In this document: in pieces, positions 37,102 through 56,548 of the stretch
How the letters are laid out: each line of letters starts with the position of its first letter
Position numbering within the stretch: position 1 is the stretch's first letter
NCBI GenBank assembly: GCA_020851455.1
Contig: JADZCT010000018.1
Location: 62,001 to 126,000, forward strand
Reading direction: 5' to 3'
DNA from: Gemmatimonadaceae bacterium
Lineage (GTDB): Bacteria > Gemmatimonadota > Gemmatimonadetes > Gemmatimonadales > Gemmatimonadaceae
Length of the DNA stretch: 64,000 nucleotides
Position numbers and translations under genes: made by a program
Notes under the pieces: model-generated
The model's input: the letters and a program-made list of their open reading frames with translations, nothing else
Told to the model about the DNA's origin: nothing
Database searches by the model: none

Positions 37102-38775
37102 TCATGCGGATCCTCCGCCGGGCATGGAAGCGTGAACCGGCAGCATTACGGTGAACGTCGTCCCGTGGTCGCCCGTATCCACGAGCACCACGCCGCCGTG
37201 TGCCTCGACGGCGCGGTACGCAATCGGGAGCCCCAGGCCGCTGCCTCCCTGCTTGGTGGTCGCGAACGGCTCGAAGAGCCGGTCACGGAGCGTGGCGTCT
37301 ATGCCGGGGCCGTCATCGTGCACAACGATCGCGATGGCGCCGCGCTCGAGCGACGCGACCCCGCGCGGCACGCCGCCAGGGCCCACGCGCCTTACGCTCA
37401 CCTCCACGGCGGCGCCCGTCGGGCTTGCCTGGACGGCATTGAGCGTCAGGTTGAACACCACCCGGTGCAACAGGTCCTCGTCGCCATCCACAACGCCCGG
37501 GCCATCTGCCACGTAGGCCGTCACGGTGACTCCGCCGGGTTTCGATGGATGCTCGGCCGCAAGCCGGCAGGCACCGCGGACTACCTGGGAGACGTCAACC
37601 GGGTCGCGCCGGGTCACCCGGACGCGCGCAAAGTCGAGAAACTCGGAGAGCAGCCGGGAAAGGCGGTCGGACTCGCGCACGATCAGGTTGCCGAGCGTGC
37701 GCTCGTCGTCCGTCGCCGCGCGGCGCGCGGAGAGCTGCTCGACCGCGCTGCGGATCGAGGCAAGCGGATTCTTGATCTCGTGCGCCAGGGAGGCGGAAAG
37801 CTCGGCCACGGCTTCGAGCCGCTCGGCGCGAAGGTGAAGCTGCTCGAGCCGCTTCTGGTCGGAGATGTCCTGGAAGATCGCGGTGATCGTACGTTCCGCT
37901 GCGCCGCCACCGGTGTCGGTTGACGTGGTCGTGACGCCCAGCGGGACCGTAACGGAGCCGCGACGCAGGATTCCCTCCGTGCGGCCACCGCCGCCGCTTC
38001 CGTCGTCGGCCGCGCGGCGGATCGCCGCAGCCAGCCCCGGCGCTATGCGGTCGAGATCCGCAAGAATCGGCGACCCGATGCGCTCTGTAAGGTCCAGCCC
38101 GAGAAGCGAGCCCGCCGCGGGATTGGCGAAGAGCAGTTCGCCGCCGCGGCTCACGCTCATGATGCCGCTGCGGATGTTGCGGAGGATGTCGGCGTCGCGG
38201 AGCTGCACCCGATACAGCTCGGCGGCCGCGCCCACGCCAGCCGCCTTCAGCTGCACCGCGATGTAGCTCGCCCCCACCCCCGAGAGGGAGAAGACGATGA
38301 GCTGCAGCGCCAGCGCCACCGGATCCTGCGGCAGGGCCTGCAGCATCACCACGTCGCCCGTGTAGAGAACCAGCCCGAGCGCAGTGACCAGGAGCGCCCC
38401 GCCAAACGGCAGCACGATCGCTGCCACCGCGTTCACGAGGATGTACAGCGCAGCGAACTGGCCGTCCGTCACGTGCACGACGCTCGTGACCAGCGCTACG
38501 TCCGCGGCCGCCTGCAGGTAGAAGAATCCGCGCGTGAGCGGGTGCTGGCGGATGTCGGACCAGGCGAATGACGCTATCGTGACAAAATGCGCGATGATGA
38601 ACGCGAGCGTCGCGACGAGCGTCTTGTCGTTGTCCGAGTTCCGCCACGACGCGATCGCCGCAATAATGATCGCCCATGCGAGCGAGAGGCGCGCCACGTA
38701 GACCCAGCGGACCAGCCGCCTGGGTTCCAGTACCGCCTGCCATCTCCGATCACCCGGGCCTGCGAGTTCCATCAC
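37102..38775 (-). CDS. pilS: Membrane histidine kinase, PilS type
   Basis: A 557-residue sensor kinase. Six hydrophobic helices occupy about 27-175, as in PilS, which senses pilin levels in the membrane. A PAS domain follows (about 195-305), then the H-box SLAHEIKNPLASIRSAVEQL with His332 and an HATPase domain (NLTLNAVQASP, DDGPGID, LFEPFATTKQGGSGLGL). The start is one of two adjacent ATGs at 38775 and 38772. First gene of a minus-strand run that continues through pilR, three glycosyltransferases and the pilin genes. Confidence 0.92.
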   Translation of the reverse strand: MMELAGPGDRRWQAVLEPRRLVRWVYVARLSLAWAIIIAAIASWRNSDNDKTLVATLAFIIAHFVTIASFAWSDIRQHPLTRGFFYLQAAADVALVTSVVHVTDGQFAALYILVNAVAAIVLPFGGALLVTALGLVLYTGDVVMLQALPQDPVALALQLIVFSLSGVGASYIAVQLKAAGVGAAAELYRVQLRDADILRNIRSGIMSVSRGGELLFANPAAGSLLGLDLTERIGSPILADLDRIAPGLAAAIRRAADDGSGGGGRTEGILRRGSVTVPLGVTTTSTDTGGGAAERTITAIFQDISDQKRLEQLHLRAERLEAVAELSASLAHEIKNPLASIRSAVEQLSARRAATDDERTLGNLIVRESDRLSRLLSEFLDFARVRVTRRDPVDVSQVVRGACRLAAEHPSKPGGVTVTAYVADGPGVVDGDEDLLHRVVFNLTLNAVQASPTGAAVEVSVRRVGPGGVPRGVASLERGAIAIVVHDDGPGIDATLRDRLFEPFATTKQGGSGLGLPIAYRAVEAHGGVVLVDTGDHGTTFTVMLPVHASMPGGGSA

Positions 38776-47868: not shown

Positions 47869-50800
47869 TCACCGCCTGACAAGCACCGGCCCCCAGTTGA
47901 TCCCGGGACGGATCCCCGTCCACACCTCCACCGGACCCACCAGGCTCTCCGTGCGGTGCGCCTTGCCTCCAAGAACCACCGCAACGCTGTCACCAGGCGA
48001 GAATGCGCGCCCGGTGACGGCCCGCGGTATGCCGTCAATCGCGAAAGCGCACCGGCCGTCGGGGAAGACCTGGATGTCCACGGTGACCCATCCACCGCGC
48101 TTCTGGGCCGGAGTGAGTTCGTAGCCGCGCAGCATCCGCGGTCCGGTGAGCCCGCCGCGCTCTCCGCCCGGCATCCCTTCGCCCTGCGGCAGCCCGGCGG
48201 CACACTCGCCCGCGGGACGGGCAGGAGGAAGTCCGCCGGTAAGATGATCCCAGCGCCTCAGCTCCGCCGGCGCCACGGCCATCACCCACACGCCCGCGGT
48301 CTGCCATTGCAATGCGGTCAGGCGCACGCTCACCATGGCGTGCACGGCAAGCCCATCGGCCGGAGAGAACAGGCGGGCGGAGTGCACGCCGCTGTCGAAG
48401 GTGGAGTCGCCATTGAGCGACAGCACCCGCTGCCCATCCTTCGCCGCAATGAACGGCCGCGGGTACCCAAAGGACACCCATCGGGAGGAATTGATTGCCT
48501 CCCACCGCTCGGCCAACGCCTCGTTCGCCGGGGCGGATGCAGCCGCGCTGGTCGAGGACGGAGCCGGCTTCGCAACGTCAATCGCGGCAGTGTCCACCAG
48601 CCACCCACCCACCGACGCAACGACCCGGCCGGCACCGGCGGCAACCGGCGACACAACGCCATCGGCGCTCACGCGCACGACCATCGTGTCCAGCGATGTC
48701 CAGGTGACGCCAACCACCGGGTACGGCTCGCCACGCTGGTCAACGCCGCGCACGGCGAGCCGGGCCCGCTCGTCGGCGCGCAGCGGCGCGGGCGGCGCGA
48801 CCGTCCGCGCGCTCGCCAGGTGCGGCGTTGGCACGGAGCCGTCGGCGAAGGTCACGATGGCAACCGGCTCGGGCCACGCAACGCGCCTCAACGACCCCGC
48901 GCCATCGGTCCGGCCAACCATCCATACGTCGCCGTCTTCATCGGGAACGCCATAGCCGGCGGCGAAGAACTCGCCGTTCCTCGAGGCGACATACGCTGCA
49001 GCCCCTTCGTGGATGGGCCTGTACGACCACGAGACGACGTCCAGCGCGACGAGCGCTCTTGCGGTGTCGTTGCGCACGGAAAGGAGCACCTCGCGCGGGC
49101 CGCGCCAGCCCAGCGGCTCCGCCGCGGCGCCGCCGGGTGCGGTGGCGCAGCGTTCGCCGGTTCCGTCTGGCCCGATGACGCACACCTCCGGCGTGCGGTC
49201 AATGAAGAAGGTGCGGCCGAAGGCAATGAGCCCGCCGCCCGGCGACCACATGGGGTTCGCTTCGTATGCGTCGGTGCGCGTGAGACGGCGAACGGCGCCG
49301 CTCCGCACGTCGAGGACGCCAAGGTCGGTGTGCTCGTGGGCGTCCCATCGCTGCGTAAGGAAAGCAAGGAAGCGCTCGTCGGGCGAAAGATCGCCCTCCA
49401 CATCATCGCCGGGGGCATTCGTCATCCGCTGCTCGGCGCCGTCCGCGGTGCGGCGAAAGATGTCAATGCCGCCGCTGTCGCCCACCGTGCGGTGGTAAAT
49501 GAGGTCGCCGGACGAGAGGCGAAGGCCGTGGGCGTAGCCCCTCGCCGCGTCCGTCTCCTGGCTCACCGAAAGCGGCGTGAAAGTGCGGTTCATCCGCAGC
49601 GGACCCGACACGAGGAACGTCGAAGCGCTCAGTGGCGCGCGCGCAGTCACGAGCACGCTGTCGTGCGGCGCGCGCAGCTCGATCCACGCGCGGGCGGACG
49701 TCTGCCGCCGGAGCGCGCTCGCTCCCAGCGCGAGCGCGGCAACGGCGACCACGGCGGCGCCGGCAATCGCACCCACCCGCCACCGGCGCCTGAGCCCCAG
49801 CGGCACGCGCGGCAACCCCACGCTCGCCAGCTCCGCGGCCGCGGCAACGCCCGCAAACTGCCGCCATAACGCGGCGGTCGGGCGCCAGTCCCCTTCCTTG
49901 CGCGCGCGGCGAAGGTCGGACACAAAGAGATCGCCGACGGGACGCACGTCGTTCGAGCGCACGAAGTGCTCGATTGCAAGCTGCGGCTTTGCCCCCGGGG
50001 CGCTGGCGTACGCCGTGCCCAGCGCGCGGTGCGCCTCGCGTAGCGCCGCATCGGGCGCGGCAGCCAACACCGCGTTGGCGATTTCGTCGTGCGCGATCGC
50101 CCAACGCGCCCCTGCCGCCCGAACGAATCCGCGCTGCTCGAGCGATTGCAGGTGCGCGACGACGTCTTCCTCGCGCAGGCCCGCGCCAGGGGCGAGCATT
50201 ACCGTCAGGAGCGGCATCCCGGCCGCGGAAAGCAAGCGCGCGATCGCCAGGTCGGGCCCGTCGAGCGCGGCGATCCGGCGATCGAGCGCCGATCCCCGGG
50301 CAAGGAGCGCATCGAGCTGCGCCGGGTCGGTGCACCGCCACGTGCCTTCCTCGATGCAAAGCACGCAGCGGTCGAGCGCGAGTTGGAGCGTCTCCACCAC
50401 GCCAAGGGGCTGGCCGCCGCTTGCCCCGTGCAGCGCCTTGCCCAACACGGCTGCCCACGCTTCGTCGGGCAATGTGGCGATGCTCGAAACGAGATCGGCC
50501 ACGGCCTGTGCATCGAGCGGATCGAGCGCGAGCGACTCAACCGACTGCCACAGCAAGATGGGGTCCTCACTCGGCCGCGCGGCGGTCACCGCCATCGCAC
50601 GTGCGCCATCGAGCCGCGCGATCATGGCCAGGATCACGGCGCGCGACTCGGGGTCGGCCCAGTGGAGGTCGTCAACGAGAATCGCGAGCGGCGCCTCGTC
50701 AGCCACCAGGTGCGCAAGCTCGGCCAGCGCGAGCGCACGGCGCAGAACCGCGTCGCCCCCGGCGGCCGCTTCCGGCTGCGCGGTGAACACCGACGAGAGC

Positions 50801-51882
50801 GCGGGGTTCATCGCGACGAGCGTGGCCGCGGCGCTTTCGCCCAGTGCGGCGGCGCCCGGCAGGCGCGCCATCGCTCCGGCAACGTCGGCCGCGGCGGCGA
50901 ATGGAACGTGCCGCTCCGCCGACTGGATCTGCACCCCCGCGATGCGCGAACGCTTTGCCTTGAGCCGCGCGGCAAAATCCTGCAGGAGCCGCGACTTGCC
51001 CATCCCCGCGGACGCGGTGACGTGAACGTGCGAGAACCCGCCCGCGCGCGCCTGGCTCCAGTGCTCGATGAGCCGCGCGAACTCGCGCTCCCTGCCAACC
51101 AGGTCGGTAACGAACGCGATCCCCGCGCGCACGCCGCCCGGAATCGCGTCGCTCCGAAGCGAAGCGCGCGCCTCGGCGATCGAGGACCGCGTTGCCGGCT
51201 CGGGGGCTATCTCCTCGGCGAGCAGGAATCGCTCGATCGAGTCGGCCTCGGCGGTGGCACCCAGAGGGTCGCTCGATGCGAGCAGCGCCTCGAGCACCAG
51301 CCTGTGGCCGGTCTGCGCCCACGGATCGCCGTCGCGCGCGCGCCGCGCCAGCGCCACGCCCTCCCGGAAACGCCCGGCAGCCAGCGCCTCACGCGCCGCC
51401 TTCTCCGCGCAGCGTACGAAGAGCCCTCGCAGCCGGCTGCGTTCGGTATCGGCCCAGCGCTCGAACTCGCCGGCGCCAGGAAGCGAAAGCGGCGCCAGAA
51501 ACTCCCCCCTGTAGCAGTCCACCGCCGCCTGGCAGCGGCCCGCATCCACCTCGGCGCAGAACCGGTCGCGGTCGCTCTCGAGCGGGCACGTCAGCGCGAT
51601 CTCGGATCCCGAGGTAGCCATCACGCAGTCGCCGAGGCGCCGCCTGATGTGCCACGCCGTCTGGCGGAGGGCGTGGCGGCCTGCTTCCGGAGCCAAGTCG
51701 GGCCAAAGCATTCCGACCAGTTCGTCGCGGCCAGCCGTCCGGCGGGGTGCGCAGGCCAGGTAGGCCAGCAGGGCCGACGGCTTCCCAGGCCCGAACCGCG
51801 CGCCGGCCGCGTCGCCCCGCTCGGCGCTGCACGCCCCGAGCGTCAGGATCACCAGCGACGGCAGGTCGTCGGCCGGAGTCAT
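47869..51882 (-). CDS. Transmembrane BTAD-AAA regulator with TolB-like propeller, Big_2 and jelly-roll-like domains
   Basis: A 1337-residue multidomain protein. In order: winged-helix DNA-binding region of the SARP/AfsR type (about 8-105), BTAD helical repeats (about 105-245), an AAA ATPase with Walker A ASAGMGKS (near 291-298) and Walker B ILVDDLHWAD, a helical region, one transmembrane helix (about 702-725, preceded by RRRWR), a beta-propeller with TolB/PD40 blades (GDLSPDERFLAF, NPMWSPGGGLIAFGRT), a Big_2-like stretch (VTWTSLDTMVVRVSADGVVSPVAAG) and a C-terminal beta region of about 200 residues resembling a LamG/concanavalin fold. The positive residues before the helix put the DNA-binding half inside and the propeller outside. 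ATG 51882 is favoured over GTG 51900 because GAGG lies upstream. Ligand and target genes unknown. Confidence 0.85.
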   Translation of the reverse strand: MTPADDLPSLVILTLGACSAERGDAAGARFGPGKPSALLAYLACAPRRTAGRDELVGMLWPDLAPEAGRHALRQTAWHIRRRLGDCVMATSGSEIALTCPLESDRDRFCAEVDAGRCQAAVDCYRGEFLAPLSLPGAGEFERWADTERSRLRGLFVRCAEKAAREALAAGRFREGVALARRARDGDPWAQTGHRLVLEALLASSDPLGATAEADSIERFLLAEEIAPEPATRSSIAEARASLRSDAIPGGVRAGIAFVTDLVGREREFARLIEHWSQARAGGFSHVHVTASAGMGKSRLLQDFAARLKAKRSRIAGVQIQSAERHVPFAAAADVAGAMARLPGAAALGESAAATLVAMNPALSSVFTAQPEAAAGGDAVLRRALALAELAHLVADEAPLAILVDDLHWADPESRAVILAMIARLDGARAMAVTAARPSEDPILLWQSVESLALDPLDAQAVADLVSSIATLPDEAWAAVLGKALHGASGGQPLGVVETLQLALDRCVLCIEEGTWRCTDPAQLDALLARGSALDRRIAALDGPDLAIARLLSAAGMPLLTVMLAPGAGLREEDVVAHLQSLEQRGFVRAAGARWAIAHDEIANAVLAAAPDAALREAHRALGTAYASAPGAKPQLAIEHFVRSNDVRPVGDLFVSDLRRARKEGDWRPTAALWRQFAGVAAAAELASVGLPRVPLGLRRRWRVGAIAGAAVVAVAALALGASALRRQTSARAWIELRAPHDSVLVTARAPLSASTFLVSGPLRMNRTFTPLSVSQETDAARGYAHGLRLSSGDLIYHRTVGDSGGIDIFRRTADGAEQRMTNAPGDDVEGDLSPDERFLAFLTQRWDAHEHTDLGVLDVRSGAVRRLTRTDAYEANPMWSPGGGLIAFGRTFFIDRTPEVCVIGPDGTGERCATAPGGAAAEPLGWRGPREVLLSVRNDTARALVALDVVSWSYRPIHEGAAAYVASRNGEFFAAGYGVPDEDGDVWMVGRTDGAGSLRRVAWPEPVAIVTFADGSVPTPHLASARTVAPPAPLRADERARLAVRGVDQRGEPYPVVGVTWTSLDTMVVRVSADGVVSPVAAGAGRVVASVGGWLVDTAAIDVAKPAPSSTSAAASAPANEALAERWEAINSSRWVSFGYPRPFIAAKDGQRVLSLNGDSTFDSGVHSARLFSPADGLAVHAMVSVRLTALQWQTAGVWVMAVAPAELRRWDHLTGGLPPARPAGECAAGLPQGEGMPGGERGGLTGPRMLRGYELTPAQKRGGWVTVDIQVFPDGRCAFAIDGIPRAVTGRAFSPGDSVAVVLGGKAHRTESLVGPVEVWTGIRPGINWGPVLVRR

Positions 51883-51931
51883 GACACTAAACTGCCTCAC
51901 AGGAGCGTCGGATGCACGTCGGCCCCGCCGC

Positions 51932-53957: not shown

Positions 53958-54557
53958 GTGAACCCGGTCGAGCTGGTCGCGGTTGCGTTCGGCCTCGTAA
54001 GCGTGGCGCTCTCGGCGCGCGAGCACATAGTCGCGTGGCCCACGGCGATCGTGAACGTGGGGCTGTTCTTCTTCCTGTTCTGGGAAGCACGGCTCTACGC
54101 CGACTCGGTGCTGCAGCTCGTTTACCTCTCGCTCTCGGTGTACGGGTGGTGGGCATGGCTGCACGGCGGCGCGGCGCGCGGCGCCCTCCGCGTCTCGCGC
54201 GGCACGCGGCGCCTCTGGCTGCTCACACTCCCCGCCACCATTGGCGCCGGGTTCGCGCTGGGGGCATTCCTCGAGAGGCACACCGACTCGCCCGTGCCCT
54301 TCCTCGACGCGCTCCTCACCACGACAAGCCTGCTCGCGCAGTGGATGATGACGCGCAAGATCCTCGAGAACTGGGTGCTGTGGATCGTCGTTGACATCGT
54401 GTACGTGCCGACGTTCATCGCGCGCGGGCTGCCGTGGACGGCGCTTCAGTACGGCGTGTTCCTCATCCTCGCGTGGATGGGGTTCGTGGGGTGGCGGGCT
54501 TCGTGGCGCGCCGACCGGGCCGGCACCCCGCCAACGCAGGCGGCGCCGGCGCAATGA
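53958..54557 (+). CDS. pnuC: Nicotinamide riboside transporter PnuC
   Basis: Inner-membrane carrier for nicotinamide riboside, 199 residues, about seven hydrophobic helices. The family core is seen in WPTAIVNVGLFFFLFWEARLYAD, SLSVYGWWAW and the later WIVVDIVYVPTFIARGL. Facilitated entry is driven by phosphorylation inside the cell; the next gene encodes a matching kinase and starts within the pnuC stop (ATGA). PnuT (thiamine) and PnuX (riboflavin) belong to the same family, but the kinase neighbour favours the nicotinamide riboside substrate. Confidence 0.9.
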   Translation: MNPVELVAVAFGLVSVALSAREHIVAWPTAIVNVGLFFFLFWEARLYADSVLQLVYLSLSVYGWWAWLHGGAARGALRVSRGTRRLWLLTLPATIGAGFALGAFLERHTDSPVPFLDALLTTTSLLAQWMMTRKILENWVLWIVVDIVYVPTFIARGLPWTALQYGVFLILAWMGFVGWRASWRADRAGTPPTQAAPAQ

Positions 54558-55153
54558 CGGTCCGGATCGTCGTGACCGGCCCCGAGTGCACGGGCAAGAC
54601 GACCCTGGCCGCTGCACTTGCCGACTCGATTGGCGCCAAGTGGGTGCCCGAGGCGGCCCGGCTCTACGCCGAGCGCGCTGCGCGCCGGGGACGCACTCTC
54701 AGCGCGGGCGACGTGGAGCCGATCGCGCGGGCGCAGATGAGGGCCGAAGACGCCGCGCTCCGGACTGGCCGCGGTGACAGTGCCATGGGCTATCGCGGCG
54801 ATGGTGCTGGCGCACGGGCCACGACCCGTCCACCCGCCCGCCTCGTGCTCGACACCGACCTCGTAAGCACCGCGGTGTACGCGCAGCACTATTACGGCCT
54901 CGACGTGCCATGGATCAGCGCGGCCGCGCTCGAGCGGCGCGGCAACCTCTACGTGCTCGCCGCGCCCGACATCCCGTGGGTCGCAGACGGCATCCGCGAC
55001 CGCCCCGCCGCCCGCGAGGCCATGTTCGCCCAGTTCCAGCGCGCGCTGCAGCGCATCGGGGCGAACGTCGTCGAGGTGCGTGGGCTCGGCGACGCGCGCT
55101 TCCAGGCCGCGATCAAGGAAGTGCGCTCGCTCCTCGAAGGGGAGCGCAAGTGA
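54554..55153 (+). CDS. NadR-type nicotinamide riboside kinase
   Basis: A 199-residue P-loop kinase resembling the C-terminal domain of NadR. Walker A is VTGPECTGKTTLA (7-19); VPEAARLYAE follows as in NadR; LDTDLVSTAVYA is the acidic strand; DIPWVADGIRDRP near 150-162 contains the lid-like Asp/Arg residues. No HTH and no adenylyltransferase domain. The start shares ATGA with the end of pnuC, so import and trapping of the nucleoside are produced together. A stretch 80-92 (MGYRGDGAGARAT) is an unusual glycine-rich insertion. Confidence 0.85.
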   Translation: MTVRIVVTGPECTGKTTLAAALADSIGAKWVPEAARLYAERAARRGRTLSAGDVEPIARAQMRAEDAALRTGRGDSAMGYRGDGAGARATTRPPARLVLDTDLVSTAVYAQHYYGLDVPWISAAALERRGNLYVLAAPDIPWVADGIRDRPAAREAMFAQFQRALQRIGANVVEVRGLGDARFQAAIKEVRSLLEGERK

Positions 55154-55186
55154 GCGCGTGCGTGGCCTCGCGATGATCGCGACGCG

Positions 55187-56548
55187 ATGATCGCGCAAGC
55201 GGCGGCATTCACACAGGCGGCCGCGCTCGCACAGGCGCCGATCGCCGAGCAGCCAGTGTCGGAACTCGCCACCGCCGCGCTCCAGGCCACAATCACCGCC
55301 GGCCTCGCGCTCGTCTGCCTCTGGGTGTGGCGGCGCACGCGCGAGCCCCACTTCGCGTGGTGGGCAGTGGCCTTTGGCATCTACGACCTCCGCATCGGCG
55401 CAATCTCCGCGTTCCTCGCAACAGGGAACCGCGCCTGGCTGTTCTGGCACCAGGTCGTCACCGGCTGGACCGCCCTCGCGCTCTTCTGGGCAGCGATGGT
55501 CTTTGCCCACCGGCCGCAGTGGCGCCGCTGGTACTGGGCGCTGCTCGCCTTCCCGCTCGTCTGGAGCGATATCGCCGTCAACCGGCTCGAGAACTTCGCC
55601 CTCGCCGCCGCGCCGGCGGTGATCTTCATCTCCGCGACGACACTCTGGACGGGCGTCGTGCTGCTCCGCCACCGGAAGCCAGCCACGCGCACGGCGTCCA
55701 CGATCCTTGGCTGGACCTTCCTCGCGTGGGGCGTGCACCACCTCGACTACCCGATCCTCCGCGCGCAGGGAGCATGGCTCCCGTGGGGATACTACCTCGA
55801 CATCTTCTTCGTGCTCGGCGTGGGCGCGGGGATCCTCCTCCTCGTGAACGCCGACCTCGCGAGCCGGCTCCAGGCCCGCACGGCGGAACTCGAGCGGCTC
55901 TCGCGGCTCATGGTGCGGCAGCACGAGGACGAGCGCCACCGGCTCTCCATCGCCCTGCACGACGAAACGGCGCAGGTATTCGCCGCAGTGAAGATGCAGC
56001 TCGGCGTGGTGCGTGAGCAGGTGAACCCGGCCGCAGCGGCGGTGCTGGACCGCGCTATCACGCTTTTCGACGACGGTATCCAGGGCGTGCGGCGCGTGAC
56101 GCGCGACCTCCGCCCCGCCCTCCTCGACGACCTCGGCCTCCTACCCGCCCTTCGCTCGCTCGTTGGCGAGTTCGTCGAGCAACAACGCCTTCGCGTGACG
56201 TTCGACGCGCCGCAGGACCTTCCGGTGATGCCCAGCGACGCCGAAGTCGCGGTGTACCGCGCCGTGCAGGAAGCGCTCACCAACGTCAGCCGCCACGCCA
56301 GCGGGGCCGCGGCGCGCGTGCGGGTGGCCGCCGACGCCAACGCGCTGCGGGTGGAAGTGAGCGACGACGGCCCCGGGCTCGCCGCCCCCGACACCCTCGC
56401 CCGCGCCGACGCCGAGGGGCACCTCGGCATCACCGGCATGCGCGAGCGCATCGGCGCGCTGGGGGGCGACCTCCGCGTGGAGTCCACGCCCGGGCGCGGC
56501 CTGCGGCTCTCGATCACGATCCCCGTCGCGGAAGACCGCGCAATGTGA
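55187..56548 (+). CDS. NarL-type sensor histidine kinase with multi-pass sensor
   Basis: A 453-residue kinase. Residues about 28-215 contain six or seven hydrophobic helices and no periplasmic loop domain, so the sensor is the membrane part. A coiled coil (SRLQARTAELERLSRLM) leads to HisKA_3 with RHRLSIALHDETAQ, His in ALHDE; HATPase_c follows (YRAVQEALTNVSRHA, DDGPGL, HLGITGMRERIGALGG). Directly upstream of a LuxR-type response regulator whose GTG/ATG region overlaps or abuts this stop. Confidence 0.92.
   Translation: MIAQAAAFTQAAALAQAPIAEQPVSELATAALQATITAGLALVCLWVWRRTREPHFAWWAVAFGIYDLRIGAISAFLATGNRAWLFWHQVVTGWTALALFWAAMVFAHRPQWRRWYWALLAFPLVWSDIAVNRLENFALAAAPAVIFISATTLWTGVVLLRHRKPATRTASTILGWTFLAWGVHHLDYPILRAQGAWLPWGYYLDIFFVLGVGAGILLLVNADLASRLQARTAELERLSRLMVRQHEDERHRLSIALHDETAQVFAAVKMQLGVVREQVNPAAAAVLDRAITLFDDGIQGVRRVTRDLRPALLDDLGLLPALRSLVGEFVEQQRLRVTFDAPQDLPVMPSDAEVAVYRAVQEALTNVSRHASGAAARVRVAADANALRVEVSDDGPGLAAPDTLARADAEGHLGITGMRERIGALGGDLRVESTPGRGLRLSITIPVAEDRAM

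Follow-up and report, generated by a model that had tools for sequence, protein, structure and literature searches.

Organization of the regulator gene and its protein domains

The window analyzed here, a 64,000-nucleotide stretch of contig JADZCT010000018.1 from a 2.96-Mb draft genome of a Gemmatimonadaceae bacterium, carries on its minus strand a large regulator gene whose product combines a SARP-type DNA-binding module and a STAND ATPase with a membrane helix and a large exported half. The frame was uninterrupted, with no internal stop. The alignment of homologues to the regulator began at about residue 15 and the end of a putative operator lay 6 bp ahead of GTG 51900; for these reasons ATG 51882, which gives a protein of 1337 amino acid residues (47869–51882), is the likelier start codon. 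Residues are numbered from the GTG at 51900 unless otherwise stated.

From the N terminus, the protein consists of the SARP module (an OmpR-type winged helix and a bacterial transcriptional activation (BTA) domain), the STAND ATPase, one transmembrane helix, a TolB-type propeller, a Big-like segment, and a concanavalin A (ConA)/lectin-like domain (Table 1). Pfam matches on the window protein were AAA_16 at residues 267–431, BTAD at 122–240, PD40 at 870–894, and the Big-like family PF22359 at 1065–1099. A first-pass annotation made from the sequence alone had described one frame joining these parts, and the frame was indeed open throughout. The motifs ASAGMGKS and LVDDLHWAD that it listed were found, as was the hydrophobic stretch following RRRWR; its BTAD/SARP-like region was matched by Pfam and by the AfsR fold, its TolB/PD40-like blades and Big-like segment were recovered by Pfam and by the ectodomain model, and its beta-rich C-terminal domain was modeled with a ConA/lectin-like fold. 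A fusion of two genes by sequencing error, which it had considered, was ruled out by dozens of full-length homologues with the same architecture.

Table 1. Features of the regulator gene and its upstream region. pLDDT, predicted local distance difference test; rmsd, root-mean-square deviation; CRD, carbohydrate-recognition domain.
Feature	Residues	Position in window	Strand	Basis or remark
Regulator gene, whole frame		47869..51900	-	GTG 51900, longest reading; ATG 51882, likelier start
OmpR-type winged helix (SARP DNA-binding domain)	15–110	51571..51858	-	Model pLDDT mostly 72–97; AfsR fold match
BTA domain	111–250	51151..51570	-	Pfam BTAD 2.3e-6; AfsR and EmbR fold matches
STAND/AAA nucleotide-binding domain	265–540	50281..51108	-	Pfam AAA_16 5e-19; MalT and PH0952 folds
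STAND winged-helix and helical region, with H604-D605	541–700	49801..50280	-	Model; H604 D605 in 29/29
Single transmembrane helix, RRRWR just before	~706–728	49717..49785	-	Hydropathy; family alignment; model helix 701–734
TolB-type beta-propeller, pair C907/C918	743–1026	48823..49674	-	Z 19.8, rmsd 3.5, 250 aligned, TolB 2hqs
Big-like (bacterial Ig-like) segment	1045–1115	48556..48768	-	Pfam PF22359 3.3e-6
ConA/lectin-like domain, pair C1233/C1284	1124–1335	47896..48531	-	Z 16.2 Emp46p CRD, 15.9 beta-glucanase
Putative SARP operator, degenerate GCCGACG-TGCA-TCCGACG, 11-bp direct repeat		51906..51923	-	Family box
Divergent small gene, ~51 aa, one hydrophobic helix		51986..52141	+	Sequence reading; no family support

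SARP and STAND modules of the cytoplasmic half

The structure of residues 1–735 was modeled with 21 sequences at a mean pLDDT of 87.3, and comprised a winged helix with a recognition helix predicted at residues 71–89, the helical BTA domain, and the STAND nucleotide-binding domain. These were followed by another winged helix, a bundle of helices, and, at residues 701–734, one long helix. The SARP part matched the AfsR structure over residues 14–250 (Z 16.4, 229 aligned, 25% identity), and EmbR was also matched. The ATPase part matched MalT (Z 18.1) and PH0952 (Z 17.7) with an rmsd near 9, which probably arises from swung domains, and the Apaf-1 fold was matched as well. In a profile search, the match to AfsR (E 2.5e-47) spanned the SARP module and extended into the nucleotide-binding domain. 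The relation to SARP/AfsR proteins drawn in the first-pass annotation was confirmed with one amendment: judged by sequence, the SARP–STAND core is homologous to that of AfsR, not merely analogous.

The nucleotide-binding motifs were intact. The residues G299, G301, and K302 of Walker A, D410 and D411 of Walker B, R442, the GxP motif (G496–P498), and H604-D605 were identical in 29/29 members; here and below, family counts of 29 refer to the aligned members. The domain order that characterizes the SARP family, an OmpR-type winged helix and then a BTA domain, was detected by Pfam, by the model, and by fold and profile matches. A nucleotide-binding domain with Walker A, Walker B, GxP, and a winged-helix His, as in the STAND class, was present in all members, and the MalT, PH0952, and Apaf-1 folds agreed with it. 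E76 of AfsR was aligned to D68 of the regulator, which was kept in 26 of the 29 members, and this conservation hints at contacts with RNA polymerase and the sigma factor like those of AfsR.

Membrane helix and topology

The transmembrane segment was the most hydrophobic 19-mer of the regulator (Kyte–Doolittle (KD) value, 2.31) and was rich in Ala and Gly; the model helix covering it had modest confidence (pLDDT 52–73). A hydrophobic 19-mer with a KD value of 1.2–2.5, mostly the top-ranked one, was found at aligned residues 705–715 in nearly all 29 members and nearby in the rest. Lys and Arg numbered 1–7 before the segment and 0–3 after it, and the 15 residues before it carried more of them than those after it in nearly all members, with one or two ties. 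The regulator has one transmembrane helix in an N-in/C-out orientation. The helix that had been placed near residues 702–725 in ATG numbering (708–731 from the GTG) was therefore recovered, family-wide and with positive charge on its N side.

The ectodomain of the window protein contains four cysteines, C907, C918, C1233, and C1284, each kept in 27–28 of the 29 members, with 27 for the C907/C918 pair. The number of ectodomain cysteines was even (4 or 6) in every member, and that of the cytoplasmic half ranged from 0 to 11 with either parity. This pattern fits what disulfides formed outside the cytoplasm would give. It is strongly disfavored that the protein is soluble, with the hydrophobic segment as one of its internal helices and the C-terminal half as a cytoplasmic propeller. 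The segment is weak (KD 1.2–1.5) in a few relatives, as could be held in favor of such a protein, but its position and charge asymmetry were conserved in 29/29 members, the even cysteine number was likewise invariant, and two clearly soluble SARP–STAND relatives with TPR-like ends in the same genome (L121 and L160) had no such segment. The first-pass annotation had also considered a cytoplasmic TPR or propeller half; the C-terminal half was modeled as a TolB propeller, a Big-like segment, and a ConA-like domain, not as TPR, and the cysteines fit an exported location.

Propeller and ConA-like domain of the ectodomain

The window protein scored 30.6 bits (E 1.7e-7) with the NCBIfam TolB equivalog, far below its whole-protein cutoff of 343. 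The ConA-like domain of the window copy had no Pfam match, its counterparts in 28 members gave just three stray family hits, and sequence comparison with Pfam and the PDB yielded nothing convincing. A GH16 glycosidase was ruled out for this domain, with the catalytic ExDx(x)E (ExDxxE) motif absent in 29/29 members, and because of this absence binding is likelier than hydrolysis.

The ectodomain might instead be structural or adhesive, engaging the cell wall or a complex in the envelope by TolB-like docking, with the STAND module sensing a cytoplasmic signal. This would agree with the propeller having the lowest conservation of all folded parts (mean identity, 0.23), with the action of TolB itself through protein–protein docking, and with the different ectodomain of about 300 residues in relatives. 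However, the family strictly kept the cysteines of the presumed disulfides as well as many residues of the ConA domain, and the transmembrane helix replaces the TPR sensor of AfsR at the usual sensor position of STAND proteins. We regard a purely structural ectodomain as unlikely.

Distribution of the family and related classes

A whole-protein search of 298 genomes of the phylum yielded full-length matches (about residues 15–1337, 29–42% identity) in about 30 of them, with stop-free frames of about 1300–1540 amino acids. A profile of the ConA-like domain gave matches in 58 of the 298 genomes, representing 27 of 119 genera, and most of the matches sat at the end of frames of 1200–1540 amino acids; some shorter frames among these matches may be contig-end cuts or interruptions. 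The SARP–STAND–transmembrane–propeller build that the first-pass annotation had read from this stretch recurs in dozens of genomes. When about 85,000 species genomes were scanned with six peptide patterns from one protein, a procedure that leaves distant relatives elsewhere possible, full-length relatives were found in records called Gemmatimonadota only, together with one partial relative in a bin named Kuenenia. This record, L038 (CALQGY020000160.1, Candidatus Kuenenia), holds a Gemmatimonadota-type SARP–STAND gene, and its name looks wrong because its match coordinates equal those of G219:C160.

Class II proteins (L141–L152; about 1000–1085 amino acids) have the same SARP–STAND–transmembrane core as class I, the class of the regulator, and a different, unannotated ectodomain of about 300 residues with the sequence marks 'AASVWLSMTPTWG...RYWLLF...SRTNW...WGDGNDI'. 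In the core tree, classes I and II were joined with a support of 100/99, and class I formed a group of 27 rows (86/92). Deeper branches belonging to another family (e.g., L154, L157, and L159) also end in Big-like and ConA-like regions; at least one exchange of the ectodomain therefore appears to have occurred among related regulators, in an inferred direction.

A paralogue (G000:C45:53202-56333; L121:7203-10334) lies on the same contig, about 6 kb to the left of the window. It encodes 1043 amino acids with BTAD-like and AAA_16 regions, and its C terminus is helical and TPR-like without a membrane segment; it is a soluble AfsR-type relative.

A direct repeat upstream of the regulator genes

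The sites recognized by SARPs are directly repeated heptamers, spaced at a period of 11 bp, near the −35 region. The operator bound by AfsR, the afs box, has been described (PMC10936776). In the upstream regions of class I genes, we sought 7-mers that recur after 11 bp, and the resulting consensus was TCTGACG-N4-TCTGACG; the first counts were made on those same sequences. CTGACG-N5-CTGACG occurred with ≤1 mismatch in 12 of 24 class I upstream regions (shuffles: mean 0.04, maximum 1) and with ≤2 mismatches in 19 of 24 (shuffles: mean 0.95, maximum 4), and other spacings of 7–33 gave 0–4 regions at ≤1 mismatch. Upstream of class II and Ib genes, YTRACG-N5-YTRACG was present at 11 bp in 5 of 21 regions (shuffle mean, 0.01) and at no other tested spacing. 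Across 17 whole genomes, class I boxes with ≤1 mismatch were found at 24 sites, versus 4 for a reversed control pattern, and 9–10 of the 24 sites lay directly upstream of a regulator gene. The class II/Ib and genome-wide tests weigh most, because the box was discovered on the class I upstream sequences themselves; all box counts treat related sequences as separate, uncorrected for kinship.

This repeat lends independent support to a function as a DNA-binding activator, with binding as a prediction. The identity of residue 84 showed a hint of association with the box sequence, on too few independent cases. No sigma-70-type promoter was found ahead of the regulator gene, and the degenerate box of the window is presumed to be in use.

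Candidate targets and gene neighborhood

In G104 (L132, C41; 3841-7531), three strong boxes surround the regulator gene. They precede the regulator itself, a PD40 lipoprotein-like gene, and a gene for an exported RCC1/Big protein, downstream of which a possible outer-membrane protein is encoded. In G090, a second box lies before a divergent gene for an exported protein whose sequence appears FnIII-like. Our best guess from these sites is that the regulator controls its own gene and a few envelope genes. In other genomes the neighbors varied; six loci shared one syntenic block with pterin-pathway and ParA-like genes.

In the window, the divergent small gene lies between the regulator and a gene for a secreted-looking M20 peptidase, and is possibly a partner or target of the regulator. 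Further along the plus strand (53958-56548), a PnuC-type nicotinamide mononucleotide transporter, an ATPase-like gene of NadR-like appearance, and a membrane histidine kinase follow in order.

Proposed mechanism

The results make it likely that the regulator is a one-component activator, tethered to the membrane and gated by ATP, that responds to something beyond the inner membrane and acts on its own gene and on envelope genes. The periplasmic sensor would consist of the TolB-type propeller, the Big-like spacer, and the ConA/lectin-like tip, probably with two disulfides, and the single helix would couple it to the cytoplasmic STAND ATPase and SARP activator. In the resting state, an ADP-bound STAND module would restrain the SARP module. 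An outside ligand or partner, most likely a glycan or an envelope protein, would signal through the helix, and the STAND module would take up ATP. The freed SARP protomers would then bind the 11-bp-period repeats and, as AfsR does, recruit RNA polymerase through sigma region 4, activating rather than repressing the regulator's own gene and, in some genomes, adjacent genes for exported proteins. ATP-gated release of the SARP module is proposed by analogy, because in AfsR the SARP is held inactive by the STAND half until ATP binds (PMC10936776). The interpretation as a one-piece membrane transducer given in the first-pass annotation is supported. The architecture, topology, nucleotide motifs, and promoter box are computed results, and the ligand binding and ATP switching that the annotation included are what we infer.

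Cleavage of the site-1/site-2 type near the transmembrane helix could release the SARP–STAND half, leaving the ectodomain as a regulated anchor only. Regulated proteolysis would fit a protein in which one type II helix carries a large ectodomain, and the Ala/Gly-rich composition of the helix would suit it. However, no protease gene recurred beside family members, and characterized transmembrane transcription regulators (TTRs) such as CadC work from the membrane (PMC6320335, PMC10269533). Release by proteolysis is quite improbable in our judgment.

Several observations weigh against the proposed mechanism. The first Gly of Walker A was replaced by Ala in 20 of the 29 members. The base-contacting T88 and R92 of AfsR aligned with Q80 and H84 of the window protein (Q80 and Y84 in most of the family). 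Five of the 24 upstream regions had no box at ≤2 mismatches, and residues 83/84 differed in several of these five. The box of the window was not significant by its own position weight matrix (PWM) score, and the window sites at 37918 and 17262 (+), which may be chance occurrences, scored as high as the regulator's box (PWM 15.4 and 14.0). No neighbor gene was common family-wide, so that genomic context implies no partner or ligand. Confidence in the ectodomain model, built with seven sequences, was moderate (pLDDT 70.7; predicted template modeling score, 0.49).

On a broader scale, these proteins may be phylum-specific membrane-spanning STAND switches, in which an NLR-like, ATP-gated module is opened through the membrane by an exported propeller/lectin sensor to drive directly a SARP for envelope proteins and of which related classes swap ectodomains; we hold this proposal to be evenly balanced. 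The family-wide 11-bp box makes the question testable, since a DNA site is now available together with a candidate promoter for autoregulation and, in one genome, candidate envelope targets. The family is also an entry to gene regulation in the little-studied Gemmatimonadota.

Comparison with known systems

AfsR, MalT, Apaf-1, and NLRs exemplify STAND ATPases as soluble switches; the best-known transmembrane regulators have a bare winged helix. A STAND module and a transmembrane regulator in one polypeptide would let an outside cue set an ATP-dependent threshold. A literature search for a membrane-bound SARP or a BTAD–transmembrane–propeller protein found no description. The text of a TTR survey (PMC10269533), in which TTRs are widespread with >100 DNA-binding domain families, has no mention of SARP, BTAD, or Gemmatimonadota, and the family may sit unnamed in its tables. 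The combination had been called unrecognized at first pass, and this held for the literature searched; as a variant of the known TTR class (PMC10269533), it nevertheless has a precedent in kind.

A TTR is defined as a single protein with a DNA-binding domain and one or more transmembrane regions (PMC10269533), and the regulator has both. The CadC/ToxR family proper has neither BTA domain nor ATPase, and both are present in the regulator. By the features tested, the regulator belongs to the SARP and STAND proteins and, by definition, to the TTRs; it lies outside the CadC/ToxR family. It shares with CadC and ToxR a cytoplasmic OmpR-type winged helix, one membrane helix, and an exported sensor with disulfides, which are probable in the regulator (PMC3096576, PMC10269533), but the ectodomain of CadC and ToxR has a fold other than a propeller and a ConA-like domain.

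The propeller resembles that of TolB in Tol-Pal, but the regulator shows no sign of the TolB N-terminal domain, and the propeller is part of a regulator, not of Tol-Pal. MalT shares the STAND fold, and its activity is gated by ATP binding (stated in PMC10936776); unlike the regulator, it is a soluble protein that binds DNA through a LuxR-type domain and its inducer through a repeat domain. AfsR, the Streptomyces SARP–NOD–TPR activator, is alike in the sequence and fold of its SARP and STAND/NOD modules; direct-repeat operators with an 11-bp period, described for SARPs, are predicted for the regulator as well, and its ATP-gated autoinhibition (PMC10936776) would be the obvious model for the regulator. 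In contrast, its base-contact residues and operator sequence differ from those of the regulator family, and AfsR, a soluble protein, ends in a TPR sensor, in place of which the regulator has a transmembrane helix and an exported sensor of about 600 residues.

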